Numbered from the stretch's first letter, positions 1 through 21,293 are shown. The stretch: 21,409 nucleotides of DNA from a virus (IMGVR_UViG_3300025759_000840:1-21409); one strand, 5' to 3'. The notes: generated by a model from the sequence alone, not told the origin. Numbers and translations are program-made.

Positions 1-105
1 ACTTTAAAGAACAGAGCTAAAAAAAAAGATAAATTCAAAAAAGATTTGAAAGATCCTAAATTTAGAGCTAAAGCTAAAATTATGGATTACAAATATATAT
101 TGTAA
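1..105 (+). CDS. C-terminal end of a small Lys-rich phage protein (5' partial)
   Basis: The reading frame is open from base 1 and stops with TAA at 103-105, giving 34 visible residues. The start lies outside the window. About 40% of the visible residues are Lys or Arg, with a KKKDKFKKDLKDPKFR stretch. From memory, similar short K-rich tails occur in small proteins of marine podoviruses, but I cannot name a family. The stop overlaps the next start as TAATG, so the gene belongs to the same translationally coupled run of basic mini-genes. Function unknown. Confidence 0.6.
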   Translation, partial: TLKNRAKKKDKFKKDLKDPKFRAKAKIMDYKYIL

Positions 106-239
106 TGGCAACACCAAAGAATAAAGCTTTATACAATAGAGTAAAATCGGAAGCTAAACGTAAATTTAAAACGTGGCCATCAGCATACGCATCAGCGTGG
201 CTTGTCAAAACGTATAAAAAGCGTGGTGGCAAATACTAA
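105..239 (+). CDS. 44-aa basic conserved phage protein
   Basis: A complete 44-residue reading frame starting at the ATG inside TAATG at 105 and ending with TAA at 237-239. The protein reads MATPKNKALYNRVKSEAK and then a core with W24-P-S-A-Y-A-S-A-W32 followed by LVKTYKKRGGKY. The pattern of a basic helix, an aromatic/Ser-Ala core and a terminal Y-K-x-x-G-G-K-Y recurs, from memory, in many marine phage and some bacterial small proteins of unknown function. About a third of the residues are Lys or Arg, so nucleic-acid contact is plausible but is inference. Both ends are stop-start coupled to neighbours, which supports the assignment despite its small size. Confidence 0.78.
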   Translation: MATPKNKALYNRVKSEAKRKFKTWPSAYASAWLVKTYKKRGGKY

Positions 240-466
240 TGGCTCAAGGTGGACTACGAAAGTGGTTTGCTGAAGATTGGCGAGATGTCAAGACAGGCAA
301 GAAGTGTGGACGTTCTGGTAAAGAAAAGAAATCTAGACCTTATCCTGCTTGTCGACCAAAAAAAGTAGCAAGTAGAATAAGTAAATCAGAAGCTCGTAAA
401 AAGACTGGCCCAAGAAAAGTCAAATGGTCAGTTACAGCTTCAGGGAGAAAACGAAAAAATGGCTAA
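239..466 (+). CDS. Basic conserved phage protein with CGRS/YPACRP motif (75 aa)
   Basis: The start is the ATG in TAATG at 239. The 75-residue protein begins MAQGGLRKWFAEDWRDVKTG and continues with K-C-G-R-S and then R-P-Y-P-A-C-R-P, so it carries two cysteines spaced about 15 residues apart, followed by a Lys/Arg-rich tail. I recognise the G-L-x-x-W-F ... W-x-D-V-x-T-G-x-x-C-G-R ... Y-P-x-C-R-P pattern as a recurring small protein of phages and large DNA viruses whose function is not established. Two Cys and no His argue against a classical zinc finger in the monomer. The 3' end overlaps the next gene by 8 nt. Confidence 0.82.
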   Translation: MAQGGLRKWFAEDWRDVKTGKKCGRSGKEKKSRPYPACRPKKVASRISKSEARKKTGPRKVKWSVTASGRKRKNG

Positions 467-740
467 ATCACCTGCATGGCAAAGAAAAGAAGGTAAAGAT
501 CCCAAAGGTGGATTAAACCGAAAAGGAGTAGCGTCATATAGACGAGCTAATCCTGGATCTAAATTAAAAACTGCTGTTACCACTAAGCCATCAAAATTAA
601 AACCAGGATCAAAAGCTGCTAAAAGACGTAAATCGTTTTGTGCTAGAATGAAGGGTATGAAGCGTAAGCTAACTTCTGCTAAAACTGCTAGAGATCCTAA
701 TTCAAGAATAAATAAATCATTAAGAAAGTGGAATTGCTAA
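459..740 (+). CDS. Basic conserved phage protein, SPAWQRKEGK / SRINKSLRKWNC type (93 aa)
   Basis: The 93-residue protein starts at ATG 459, overlapping the previous gene by 8 nt. Two conserved blocks are visible: an N-terminal SPAWQRKEGKDPKGGLN followed by KGVASYRR, and a C-terminal SFCARMKGMKRKLTSAKTA followed by DPNSRINKSLRKWNC. Both blocks are typical of a widespread family of small proteins in marine phages and cyanophages. From memory part of this family carries a domain-of-unknown-function label (DUF6321), which I could not check. It is strongly basic, with two cysteines in the C-terminal block. Location beside the terminase genes suggests a virion or packaging-associated role, but no activity is known to me. 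Confidence 0.85.
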   Translation: MAKSPAWQRKEGKDPKGGLNRKGVASYRRANPGSKLKTAVTTKPSKLKPGSKAAKRRKSFCARMKGMKRKLTSAKTARDPNSRINKSLRKWNC

Positions 741-973
741 TGAGTAAAAGTTTAGAAAAACTTGCAGATCAAATGATTCGGCTAACGCCTGAAGAAGGGC
801 AAAAACTACAGCTAATTATAAAAGCTAAGTTAATGCCTGAAATTGCTAAACAACAACAACAAGGGTTATTACAACAAGCTAATAATCCACAAATGGCACA
901 GATGGGAAATAGACAAGCAAGAATGCCTGTACCTACTTCTAGAGATGCTGCTATGAGAGGACTACTAAGATGA
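740..973 (+). CDS. Small Gln-rich helical protein (77 aa), unknown function
   Basis: I place the start at ATG 740, in a TAATG overlap with the previous stop, rather than the in-frame ATG at 728, which would lie 12 nt inside the neighbour and lacks a coupled arrangement. The 77-residue product begins MSKSLEKLADQMIRLTPEEG and continues with a helical, charge-balanced N-terminal half, then a QQQQG/LLQQANN glutamine-rich stretch and a Met/Arg/Pro-rich end. It is the least basic member of the mini-gene array. The N-terminal helix (residues about 4-30) could oligomerise. I do not recognise a family. Confidence 0.75.
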   Translation: MSKSLEKLADQMIRLTPEEGQKLQLIIKAKLMPEIAKQQQQGLLQQANNPQMAQMGNRQARMPVPTSRDAAMRGLLR

Positions 974-1152
974 GAATGAAAACAGCTTTGTTTCTTGGTA
1001 AAGTATATGCAAAAAAGGGTGCATCAAGTGCAACTGAAGCAATGAAAGCTCTTTCAGCTAAAACTAAGAAACACGTTAAAAAACATAAGCTAAAATATAC
1101 TGCAGGAGCTGGTGCTGCTGGAGGATATACAGCTTCTAAAATAAAGGACTAA
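970..1152 (+). CDS. Small basic protein with Ala/Gly-rich C-terminus (60 aa)
   Basis: It starts at ATG 970 in an ATGA overlap with the preceding TGA. The 60-residue protein has a Met/Lys-rich start, a central KTKKHVKKHKLKY block and an AGAGAAGGYTASKIKD end. The Ala/Gly stretch (about residues 44-54) is too short and too polar for a confident membrane span. Similar small proteins with K-K-H-K blocks precede Ala/Gly runs in other marine phages, from memory. Function unknown. Its position between coupled mini-genes supports expression. Confidence 0.7.
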   Translation: MRMKTALFLGKVYAKKGASSATEAMKALSAKTKKHVKKHKLKYTAGAGAAGGYTASKIKD

Positions 1153-1155
1153 ACT

Positions 1156-1260
1156 ATGCCAATGGTAGGAAAAAAGAAATACCCATACACAAAAAAGGGT
1201 AAAGCTGCAGCAAAGAAAGCTGCAAAAAAAATGGGAAAAAAAGTTAAGAAAGGTTACTAA
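1156..1260 (+). CDS. 34-aa Lys/Ala-rich peptide
   Basis: ATG at 1156 follows the previous stop by 3 nt and TAA at 1258-1260 overlaps the next ATG. The peptide is MPMVGKKKYPYTKKGKAAAK followed by KAAKKMGKK and a VKKGY end. Fourteen of the 34 residues are lysine, arranged with alanines in a pattern reminiscent of the C-terminal tail of histone H1. M-P-x-V-G-K-K-x-x-P-Y-T-x-K-G-K-A-A-A-K-K recurs, as I recall, in small proteins of many marine phages, so this is unlikely to be chance. DNA binding is a reasonable inference, not shown. Confidence 0.75.
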   Translation: MPMVGKKKYPYTKKGKAAAKKAAKKMGKKVKKGY

Positions 1261-1358
1261 TGAAAAACGTATTAACTAAAGCTCAACAAAAATTACCACA
1301 ACAGCTTAAAAATAAAATCATTAAATCTAAAATGAAAAAGAAAAAGAAGAAAAAATAA
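1260..1358 (+). CDS. 32-aa peptide ending in poly-lysine
   Basis: ATG at 1260 overlaps the previous TAA, and TAA at 1356-1358 ends the frame one base before the next ATG. The peptide starts MKNVLTKAQQKLPQQLKNKI and ends KMKKKKKKK. Residues about 5-24 could form a short amphipathic helix, and the tail is a near-homopolymer of lysine mixing AAA and AAG codons. Support comes from the exact fit between two coupled genes. There is no family recognition, so confidence is moderate. Confidence 0.62.
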   Translation: MKNVLTKAQQKLPQQLKNKIIKSKMKKKKKKK

Positions 1359-1359
1359 T

Positions 1360-1695
1360 ATGGCTAATGTAAAAGGAAACTATAAAGGTGGAAGAAGCAA
1401 AGAACTTGTAAAATATACAGTTACAGGTGCTGCTAAAGGTAGAGCTAAACAAGCTGTAGAAGCTAGTAAAAAGTTTATTAAAGATGTAGGAAGTAAAACT
1501 ACAGGACAGCAAAGATTTTTAGGAAAAACATTACCTAAAGCTTTATTTAAAACTGCTAAGTTTGCATTTAAAAATCCTATTACTGCAACAGCTGCGTTTT
1601 TAGCACCTGCTGCTATACAACCTTTTACTAAAAAAAAAGTTGCTTCTAGACCAAAACAAAAACAATATGATAGAAAAGGATTTAAAATTATATAA
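1360..1695 (+). CDS. Basic 111-aa protein, unknown function
   Basis: Start ATG 1360 follows the previous stop by one base; TAA at 1693-1695 overlaps the terminase small-subunit start. The N-terminal half is Gly/Lys/Ala-rich (MANVKGNYKGGRSKELVK), followed by several KKFIKD/KALFKTAKFAFK amphipathic segments, a hydrophobic Ala/Ile/Pro stretch at about residues 73-89 and a basic end (KKKVASRPKQKQYDRKG). The hydrophobic stretch might touch a membrane or another protein. A run of nine A bases lies at 1630-1638. A frame on the opposite strand covers much of this gene but is judged a shadow. I do not recognise the family. Confidence 0.75.
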   Translation: MANVKGNYKGGRSKELVKYTVTGAAKGRAKQAVEASKKFIKDVGSKTTGQQRFLGKTLPKALFKTAKFAFKNPITATAAFLAPAAIQPFTKKKVASRPKQKQYDRKGFKII

Positions 1696-2012
1696 TGGAA
1701 GATGAAACTAAACAAAAGAATCCAAATTTAGGTGGTAAAAGACCTGGTGCTGGTAGACCTCCTGGATCTAAAAGTAAAGTATTGTGGAAATCTATGGATC
1801 AATTAGCAGAGAAATATCAACATTCTCCTTTAGATTATTTGTTATCTGTGTTAAACAATCCTGCAAGTGCACCTGAACGTAAATTATTTGCTGCTGAAAA
1901 AGCTGCACCTTACATTCATCCAAAACTTGCAAGTACTACAACAAAGATAGGAACAGATGCCCCAGTCGAAATTAAAGTCCAATGGGAAAAAGACGAAAGT
2001 AAAGATAGTTGA
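1695..2012 (+). CDS. Probable terminase small subunit
   Basis: This 105-residue protein sits directly upstream of the large terminase and would recognise phage DNA to start packaging. After a polar N-terminus it carries GGKRPGAGRPPGSKSK (about residues 13-28), an AT-hook-like R-P-G-A-G-R-P-P-G block that is common in terminase small subunits. It then has a helical domain with L-x-Y-L-L-S-V-L-N-N-P and ERKLFAAEKAAPYIHPKLAS. The R-x-x-A-A-x-x-A-A-P-Y-x-H-P-x-L motif is, to my knowledge, characteristic of phage small-terminase families. The C-terminus overlaps the large-subunit gene by 56 nt. The start is the ATG in TAATG at 1695. Confidence 0.8.
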   Translation: MEDETKQKNPNLGGKRPGAGRPPGSKSKVLWKSMDQLAEKYQHSPLDYLLSVLNNPASAPERKLFAAEKAAPYIHPKLASTTTKIGTDAPVEIKVQWEKDESKDS

Positions 2013-3261
2013 GGTTCCATATAAACCTAGACCTTATCAATTAGAGTGTCACAAATCTTTAAAAAGATTTAATGTTCTAGTATGCCATCGTAGATTTGGT
2101 AAATCAGTATTATCTATAAACGAATTAATTAAAACAGCAGCAAAGAAACCTAGATCTTTGTGTGCATTCATAGCTCCAACATATCGCCAAGGAAAATCTA
2201 TCGCTTGGGAATATTTAAAATTTTATACAAAACCATTAATGCATTGGGGTGGTGGAAGAAACGAATCAGAATTAAGAATAGATTTGTATAATGGATCTAG
2301 AATCCAAATTTTTGGGGCAGACAACCCAGATAGTATTCGTGGAATGGGCTTTGATGCAGTTGTCCTGGACGAATATGCTATTATGTCTCCAAGAGTATGG
2401 ACAGAAATTATACGTCCTGCTATCGCAGATAAGCTAGGTTGGGTTATATTTATAGGTACACCAATGGGTCATAACTCATTTTGGGAAGTATATGATTTTG
2501 CTTTACGTGGTCATAAAGATTGGTATGGTAAATTATATAGAGCATCAGAAACTAATGTAGTACCTGATCATGAGTTAAAAGAAGCTCAAGCTATAATGAC
2601 TCCTGAACAATATGATCAAGAGTTTGAATGTTCATTTACTGCAGCAGTATCAGGTGCATATTATGGTAGACTGATAACTAAAGCAGAAAAAGAAAAAAGA
2701 ATTACTAAAGTACCATATGATGAAAGCGTTGGAGTTGAGACGTGGTGGGATTTGGGAATAGGAGATTCAACATCTATTTGGTTTGCACAAAGAATAGGTG
2801 AAGAAATTCATTTGATAGATTATTACGAAACATCAGGTGAATCTTTAGCTCATTATGCTAATGTGTTAGAAGAAAAGAATTACGCATATTCTTCTCATAT
2901 AGCACCTCATGATATAACAGCTAGAGAATTAGGAACAGGTAAATCTAGACTTGAAGTTGCAAACGAATTAGGTATAGATTTTGATGTGGCTCCAAAATTA
3001 GAAGTACATCATGGAATAGAATCAGTAAGAAATGCTTTACCTAATTGTTGGTTTGATAGAGAAAAATGCAAAGTAGGTCTTGATGCATTAAGACAATATC
3101 GAAAACAATGGGATGAAAAAAACCAAGTGTTTAAAAATAAACCTCACCATAACTGGTGTTCACACGCAGCTGATAGCTTTAGGTATGGATGTGTATCCGA
3201 ACCAATTGATACATCAGACTGGGATAGACCAATAACAGTAGATACAAAATACGTAATATGA
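1957..3261 (+). CDS. terL: Terminase large subunit (packaging ATPase and nuclease)
   Basis: This is the motor that pumps DNA into the prohead and cuts it. The 434-aa length fits the family. The ATPase domain shows RPYQ at 25-28, a Walker A-type loop CHRRFGKS at 43-50, Walker B VVLDE at 135-139 and the coupling motif GTP at 167-169. The RNase H-like nuclease domain begins around WWDLGIGD with acidic residues D265 and D270 and ends with HAADSFRY, where D406 is the likely third metal ligand. The ATG at 1957 is the only reasonable start I find in this frame, because no other ATG precedes the conserved RPYQ region, so the gene overlaps the small subunit by 56 nt. It shares ATGA with the portal gene. 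Confidence 0.95.
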   Translation: MPQSKLKSNGKKTKVKIVEVPYKPRPYQLECHKSLKRFNVLVCHRRFGKSVLSINELIKTAAKKPRSLCAFIAPTYRQGKSIAWEYLKFYTKPLMHWGGGRNESELRIDLYNGSRIQIFGADNPDSIRGMGFDAVVLDEYAIMSPRVWTEIIRPAIADKLGWVIFIGTPMGHNSFWEVYDFALRGHKDWYGKLYRASETNVVPDHELKEAQAIMTPEQYDQEFECSFTAAVSGAYYGRLITKAEKEKRITKVPYDESVGVETWWDLGIGDSTSIWFAQRIGEEIHLIDYYETSGESLAHYANVLEEKNYAYSSHIAPHDITARELGTGKSRLEVANELGIDFDVAPKLEVHHGIESVRNALPNCWFDREKCKVGLDALRQYRKQWDEKNQVFKNKPHHNWCSHAADSFRYGCVSEPIDTSDWDRPITVDTKYVI

Positions 3262-20639: not shown

Positions 20640-21293
20640 ATGATTAAAAAATTTATTATTAGAAAAAGTCCTAAGTTTAAAGGTATTACTAAATTACCAG
20701 CACAAAAAAAACCTAAAGTAAAACCATTTAGTTCTGATGCATCTATATTAAGACAACATAGAGCTGAAAAACTTGCAGCTAAATCTGAAGCTAGTGCTAT
20801 GTCTATTGGTTTGCAAAGAGTAAGAGCTAAAGGTATGCAATTATTTAGTAAAACAAAATTTTATAAAACAAAACCTGGTACTAATTTTACTGTTAAAACA
20901 ACAGAAGGTAAAAGAGCTTTAGGTATTGTTGAAAGAGCTAAAACTAGAGCTATTAAAATAGCTAGAACTAAAGGTATATCTACTTTAGAATCTAAAAGTA
21001 AATCTTTAAATGTACCTATTAGAAGATATGGTAGTCAAAAATCTAAATTTGTTCAAAAACTTACAGAACAAGAATCAAGAGAATTAGGTTTTCCACCATC
21101 AGAAGTTTTTAAATCAAGTAAAAAAACTCCTATGACTGATGTAGATAAAGTTTTAAGTCAATTTTCTACAGCAGAAAAGTTTAATCCTAAAACAGGTAAA
21201 TATCAAACTATAAGAAGATATGATGTAAGAACTAAATCTGGAAGAATGGGTAGAGCACCAACTTATAGAGAATTACAAAAACGTAAAAAATAA
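20640..21293 (+). CDS. Highly basic protein (217 aa), unknown function
   Basis: The 217-aa protein MIKKFIIRKSPKFKGITKLP has basic residues throughout (PAQKKPKVKPF, KSEASAMSIGLQRVRAKGMQ, ERAKTRAIKIARTKGI, IRRYGSQKSKFVQK and a KSGRMGRAPTYRELQKRKK end). About a quarter of its residues are Lys or Arg with few acidic ones. The central part is probably helical. I recognise no domain. High charge in the ejection-protein region suggests an internal protein bound to packaged DNA, by inference only. It starts 8 nt after the previous gene and overlaps the next ATG as TAATG. Confidence 0.75.
   Translation: MIKKFIIRKSPKFKGITKLPAQKKPKVKPFSSDASILRQHRAEKLAAKSEASAMSIGLQRVRAKGMQLFSKTKFYKTKPGTNFTVKTTEGKRALGIVERAKTRAIKIARTKGISTLESKSKSLNVPIRRYGSQKSKFVQKLTEQESRELGFPPSEVFKSSKKTPMTDVDKVLSQFSTAEKFNPKTGKYQTIRRYDVRTKSGRMGRAPTYRELQKRKK

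Follow-up and report, generated by a model that had tools for sequence, protein, structure and literature searches.

Nine small genes (g0 to g8) lie head to tail in positions 1-1695 of a 21,409-nucleotide stretch of viral DNA, called the window here, directly before the genes for the small and large terminase subunits (terS and terL). With a probability of about one half, this array represents a late modular set of virion-internal, DNA-binding basic proteins, with one small domain encoded per gene. DNA binding, packaging and ejection are what we infer for the proteins in this podovirus-like phage. New in this analysis are the assignment of two gene products to the halves of DUF5872 (the second one probably) and of a third to DUF6321, the recognition of a fused counterpart in cyanomyoviruses, and the link to capsid-targeting sequences (CTS).

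Organization, charge and selection of the mini-gene array

All genes of the array are located on the plus strand. The first, g0 (1..105; dN/dS 0.13), is the 3′ part of a mini-gene with an open 5′ end; in relatives the gene is complete and encodes about 50 aa with a net charge of +13. It is followed by g1 (105..239; 44 aa, net charge +12, dN/dS 0.06), g2 (239..466; 75 aa, +21, 0.09), g3 (459..740; 93 aa, +27, 0.19) and g4 (740..973; 77 aa, +6, 0.18), which encodes a Gln-rich, non-basic protein that is found in most relatives and is predicted to form an N-terminal helical hairpin. The position that g5 (970..1152; 60 aa, +13, 0.30) occupies is variable in relatives. The nearly constant g6 (1156..1260; 34 aa, +14, 0.15) encodes an AAAKKAAKK peptide and matches phrog_33179 (E 4e-7), and g7 (1260..1358; 32 aa, +14, 0.19) has a poly-Lys tail and a homologue in Pelagibacter phage Lederberg. 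The last gene, g8 (1360..1695; 111 aa, +23), encodes a basic protein with one hydrophobic Ala-rich segment and is under the weakest constraint (0.53). The terS gene (1695..2012, plus strand) is terminase small subunit-like (phrog_641, E 6e-8), and the product of terL (1957..3261, plus strand) is 52% identical to TerL of HTVC106P. One-nucleotide TAATG overlaps connect g0/g1, g1/g2, g3/g4, g6/g7 and g8/terS, while the remaining junctions are an 8-nt overlap (g2/g3), a 4-nt ATGA overlap (g4/g5), a 3-nt gap (g5/g6) and a 1-nt gap (g7/g8). The nine-gene layout, the junction types, the AAAKKAAKK peptide and the poly-Lys tail had all been described in the initial annotation, and every one of them was recovered. 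The window does not hold the whole array, since close relatives have two further basic genes upstream, of about 88 aa (+13) and about 42 aa (+16).

Eight of the nine genes encode strongly basic proteins, with a Lys plus Arg content of 24-44% and a net charge per residue of 0.21-0.44; g4 (16%, 0.08) is the exception, in agreement with the earlier claim that all but one are rich in these residues. The net charge per residue of 25 of the 26 other window genes was between -0.16 and +0.07 (Mann-Whitney test against the array, p=6.5e-6). The GC content of the array (0.339) equals that of the rest of the window (0.333) and the charges are far apart, and thus the basicity is not an effect of base composition. 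Random ORFs of window composition had a mean charge of +0.075 per residue and a 99th percentile of 0.244, so that the values of the array were seldom reached, albeit g5 and g8 were just mildly unusual against this null model (P 0.02-0.03). Two classes can be distinguished, i.e., hydrophilic basic proteins (g0-g3, g6, g7 and x1, one of the additional modules, designated x, that were found in relatives) and basic proteins with one Ala/Gly-rich hydrophobic segment (g8 and many proteins of the x2 and g5 type). The sole other strongly basic gene of the window is located at its opposite end (20640-21293) and encodes a protein of 217 aa with about +0.19 per residue. In addition, 12 of the 24 arginine codons in g1-g3 (105-740) are CGN codons, compared to 35 of 245 in the rest of the window, which hints at a transfer of g1-g3 from a less AT-rich phage.

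For an analysis of selection, 80 IMG/VR contigs on which a related terminase is encoded were retrieved, and dN/dS values were compared among all six frames. For each of the nine genes the in-frame value, 0.06-0.53, was the lowest of the six. The two other forward frames had values of 0.78-3.4, and the low values in the -1 reverse frame mirror the third codon positions, as is usual. For comparison, the values were 0.30 for terS and 0.10 for terL. In a first-pass calculation the values of g0, g5 and g8 had been somewhat larger, with a maximum of 0.58. All nine genes are therefore under purifying selection, as had been supposed, and none of the in-frame ratios in relatives was close to 1.

The array was also mapped in 56 loci, one of them the window, that extend far enough upstream. 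The order was x2 - x1 - g0 - [g1-g2] - [x3/x5/x7] - g3 - [x4/x8/others] - g4 - [g5 or others] - g6 - g7/x5 - g8 - terS - terL. Modules were gained and lost among the IMG/VR relatives, and nearly every insert was small and basic too, so that the set is conserved with modular turnover. The most constant members were g4 and g6, and g1 and g2 co-occurred in 12 of 12 contigs, while two more contigs end before g1. The near-constancy of the non-basic g4 indicated that the array is not purely a charge device. A fusion of g2 and g3 by frameshifting was considered and rejected, because relatives have x7 or x5 inserted between the two genes. Upstream of x2, the genes were mainly on the opposite strand in 14 of 14 readable loci (e.g., L064), which indicated that the array opens a rightward terminase/head operon. 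Judged from its position, this operon is presumably late. A promoter scan upstream of the array gave no excess above shuffled sequences. A tblastn search with g6 and x5 against named phages had no match; this result is uninformative, because BLAST filters low-complexity sequences and Lederberg does have a visible homologue of g6. Public annotations miss or misframe this g6 homologue (L002:5400-5510) as well as the g2 homologue in CRP-2 (L084:2317-2532), the frame of which departs from the annotation.

DUF5872 and DUF6321 in split and fused form

The g1 protein matched positions 1-39 of the DUF5872 family PF19197 with 47.5 bits (E 3.2e-12; gathering cut-off 27.5), and the g2 protein matched positions 53-88 with 25.0 bits (E 3e-5), slightly under the cut-off of 27.5. 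Each spans half of the 116 positions of the family, and the two align in order. By sequence, g1 thus corresponds to the N-terminal half of DUF5872, and g2 probably to the C-terminal half. The g3 protein matched DUF6321 (PF19846) with 72.9 bits (E 3.5e-20), above the gathering cut-off of 28.5. An alignment of 31 DUF6321 sequences contained 38 invariant columns, and the structure prediction was helical with moderate confidence (pLDDT 83.7, pTM 0.52). Fold searches in the PDB had no match for g3 (Foldseek, VIA-align) or g4 (Foldseek), a PDB sequence search with g3 and the P-SCSP2 homologues of g1 and g2 gave nothing significant, and an NCBIfam search had no match. DUF6321 is present in 526 of 50,697 phage records, mostly of cyanophages; no recorded function and no paper on this family were found. 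For DUF5872 one listing was found, in which it is a single protein of unknown function of the algal giant virus CpV-BQ1 (PMC12085832). This eukaryotic virus protein shares with g1 and g2 the family assignment PF19197.

A fused counterpart was found in the cyanomyovirus T4-GC119 proteins, the gene of which lies between terS and terL (gp16 and gp17), namely S-BM3 SBM3_00185, S-SM1 SSM1_115, P-HM1 PHM1_110 and S-CREM2 gp137. Like the array they are basic and adjoin the terminase genes, and they have a C-terminal DUF6321. The S-BM3 form (337 aa, net charge +40) adds g1-like and g2-like modules. It contains LRDWF...KPKC (g2-like, by eye), KFDVYPSAYANGW...GGGW (g1-like, with a DUF5872 score below the cut-off), CWKGY..VPNCVP and then DUF6321. 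Judged by motif, the same plan of fused g2, g1 and DUF6321 occurs on many IMG/VR contigs. In contrast to the array, T4-GC119 is one fused protein, has CTS-like motifs in many cases, and belongs to phages of different morphology and host. No other evidence for a joint function of g1-g3 is as strong as this fusion. The earlier proposal of a joint action is thus supported, and for g1 and g2 also by their membership in a single Pfam family and their constant co-occurrence.

In other marine phages the modules are separate. The Roseobacter phage CRP-2, phage C72C1, the Pelagibacter phages HTVC106P, HTVC027P and HTVC023P, and the Prochlorococcus podovirus P-SCSP2 have homologues of g1 and g2 as separate genes that lie side by side or nearly so. 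In HTVC027P (gp49-gp52), P-SCSP2 (19-23) and CRP-2 (gp70 and the unannotated frame) they form small basic tandem genes as in the window, with DUF5872 halves in all three and DUF6321 after the g1/g2 homologues in HTVC027P and P-SCSP2. Their genome positions are different from that in the window, i.e., between the scaffold and capsid genes in P-SCSP2, upstream of the capsid gene in HTVC027P and upstream of terS in CRP-2, and they were never named or assigned a function. Small genes that adjoin the DUF5872 halves in P-SCSP2 (P-SCSP2_20, L089:2749-2874) and HTVC023P (HTVC023P_53, L096:11007-11372) encode Lys-rich proteins with one EF-hand-like motif each (DKNKDGKISGEDF). In a protein of 205 aa that has a CTS-like start (L166:3668-4285), an x3-like module (GLWDNIHAKRKRIASGSGEKMRAPGSEGAPT) is fused to DUF6321, and therefore a further module of the array also exists in fused form.

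Capsid-targeting-like motifs and virion proteomes

The internal proteins of T4 are small and basic, are present in about 300 copies each, and bind DNA in low salt; they enter the prohead via an N-terminal signal of 10 residues, with residues 4 and 7 mainly responsible for targeting and residues 8 and 10 for cleavage (PMC9026906). Their lysines touch the DNA phosphate (PMC3012670). DUF6321 ORFs of cyanomyovirus contigs were found to contain 13 CTS-like motifs in 38 proteins, compared to a mean of 0.34 and a maximum of 2 in 200 rounds of shuffling; this count applies to a looser motif at any position. About half of the motifs were at or near the N-terminus, and most of the internal ones directly preceded a domain, e.g., SFDSFMTE before ASPAWQRK, TFSQFMAE before VAAWQRK, and SFQQFQE before KCWKGYKQV. 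In an alignment (A1), short myovirus forms have a CTS-like leader ahead of the domain that starts with MAKSPAWQRK in the window phage. A strict N-terminal CTS was present on 3 of 41 DUF6321 ORFs, which is no significant enrichment (p=0.34). These counts, and those for S-CREM2 that follow, are exploratory, because the motif pattern was picked after some of these N-termini had been seen.

S-CREM2 served as an independent check of the motif. Its strict form M.[STDN][FY]..[FY]..E occurred on three ORFs only in 94% of the S-CREM2 genome, in all cases at annotated starts. These were the SAM hydrolase gp6, gp136 and the cytidylyltransferase gp154 (on L090, L091 and L180), and all three are within the published virion proteome, which comprises 52 of 219 proteins (p about 0.013). 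A strict CTS is thus a possible explanation for the entry of the SAM hydrolase and the cytidylyltransferase into virions. In the same virions gp137 was detected with 4 peptides (4.1%) and gp136 with 8 peptides (PMC10665884, Table 3). DUF6321 is at residues 415-488 of gp137, and gp136 is its basic CTS neighbour; the 4 peptides of gp137 may derive from its non-basic N-terminal part. For S-SZBM1 30 virion proteins were reported, and the DUF6321 protein SSZBM1_192, which begins with MKTFKQYITE, is absent from them (PMC9146016, Table 1). This absence is weak evidence. Small Lys-rich proteins readily escape tryptic MS. The papers on P-SCSP1u and P-SSP7 had no usable virion MS list. As to the packaging into virions that the initial annotation had put forward, the CTS-like motifs of cyanomyovirus DUF6321 proteins and the detection of gp137 are indirectly in favour, and the missing report for S-SZBM1 and the low coverage of gp137 are against it.

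Two further genes were observed in this context. About 24 contigs that had been fetched for the DUF6321 protein contain a small gene starting with MKSFKQFLSES..I.GDFNGNLYV, a near-perfect CTS-like N-terminus. It is found on cyanomyovirus contigs within L099-L163 (e.g., L099, L110 and L116), and in S-SZBM1 it is SSZBM1_191, directly after the DUF6321 gene; by its sequence the product appears to be a further internal head protein. The other gene, SSZBM1_194 (L098:7253-9376), is flanked in S-SZBM1 by terS and the DUF6321 gene and encodes 707 aa with a net charge of +65 and a Pfam S-AdoMet_lyase match (E 6.8e-8) within a Lys-rich chain.

Proposed function and alternative explanations

As virion-internal proteins, the products of the array would be translated in a coupled fashion during prohead formation, with their genes opening the terminase/head operon. 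The Lys/Arg-rich proteins would bind to the DNA of the phage or to the core of the prohead, get into the head ahead of the genome or along with it, offset part of the charge on the DNA, and be carried into the next cell. Members of the hydrophilic class would coat the DNA, and those with a hydrophobic segment might touch the head core, or the membrane during entry. Taken as single copies, the window proteins have a summed net charge of about +140. At about 100 copies of each, they would balance about one fifth of the phosphate in a genome of some 37 kb, assuming a genome size like that of HTVC106P and copy numbers of the order found in T4. Like T4 IPI, IPII and IPIII, the proteins are small and basic, several occur together, and their genes are probably late, as judged from the start of the terminase/head operon. 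No sequence homology to the T4 proteins was found. Besides the proteome data, several results count against a virion-internal set: no window protein starts with the CTS-like pattern [FY]4..[FY]7..E10, a scan of window proteins did not recognise any prohead protease, the strict CTS is not enriched on DUF6321 ORFs, the fold searches had no match, and the nearly constant g4 is not basic. As the window proteins do not have the CTS, the array is not claimed to encode T4 internal proteins, but is likened to them by analogy of working. With histone H1-like or protamine-like viral condensing proteins, g6 and g7 share the Lys/Ala-rich composition only; neither had a Pfam match, and g6 matched only phrog_33179, a family of unknown function.

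Alternatively, the proteins might be accessories of the terminase or of packaging, with concatemer DNA or the motor, and not the completed virion, as their place of action. The location would fit, since the array overlaps terS in the window and adjoins it in IMG/VR relatives, and T4-GC119 is encoded between terS and terL. However, the modules are away from the terminase genes in P-SCSP2 (scaffold/capsid), HTVC027P, HTVC106P, HTVC010P and Lederberg, and S-CREM2 gp137 was detected in virions, which makes this explanation rather unlikely. Somewhat less likely still is a role in host takeover, in which the proteins would bind to the nucleoid, RNA or ribosomes of the infected cell. Phage takeover genes are likewise small, very basic, modular and variable in their sets, and some array members have a hydrophobic segment, but the array opens the terminase/head operon and is not part of the upstream gene block on the opposite strand, and in other phages the modules are among head or late genes. 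Nothing was found in favour of the earlier idea of host-nucleoid binding, and the promoter-proximal site in the operon argues for late timing. It is improbable that membrane-active or lysis-related basic peptides (g8, x2, x8-x11) are combined with unrelated basic genes: hydrophobic segments are present in g8 and several array members, and related small genes lie downstream of the M15 peptidase gene in HTVC106P, HTVC010P and Lederberg, but the hydropathy peaks mostly stay below the level of clear transmembrane segments, hydrophobic segments are absent from g0-g3, g6 and g7, and the g1-g3 fusion points to one function. Chance ORFs in AT-rich DNA or decayed remnants of a once-fused gene, which AAA codons making K-rich frames common at 33% GC and the two halves of one Pfam family might suggest, are contradicted for all nine genes (g8 being the least certain), because the six-frame dN/dS values and the composition nulls rule out chance, the frames are intact across dozens of contigs, and the split g1/g2 state is common to unrelated phages.

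Within the preferred reading of a virion-internal set, it is tempting, if tentative, to regard the array as a virion core-peptide polyprotein in unlinked form, the modules of which are exchanged across phages of unrelated morphology and hosts. In cyanomyoviruses, T4-GC119 would be directed to the prohead, and the T4-like prohead protease would cleave it behind CTS-like xxE sites, freeing several basic peptides that remain with the DNA. In podovirus-like and siphovirus-like relatives, each of these peptides would have its own gene within a coupled array. Phages in which no T4-type maturation protease is recognised would then have swapped a processed core polyprotein for a row of mini-genes. If this is true, DUF5872 and DUF6321 are common DNA-core proteins of marine phages. 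The link to the head interior makes two widespread families without a recorded function directly testable, and with them a whole class of tiny, often unannotated genes of pelagiphages.
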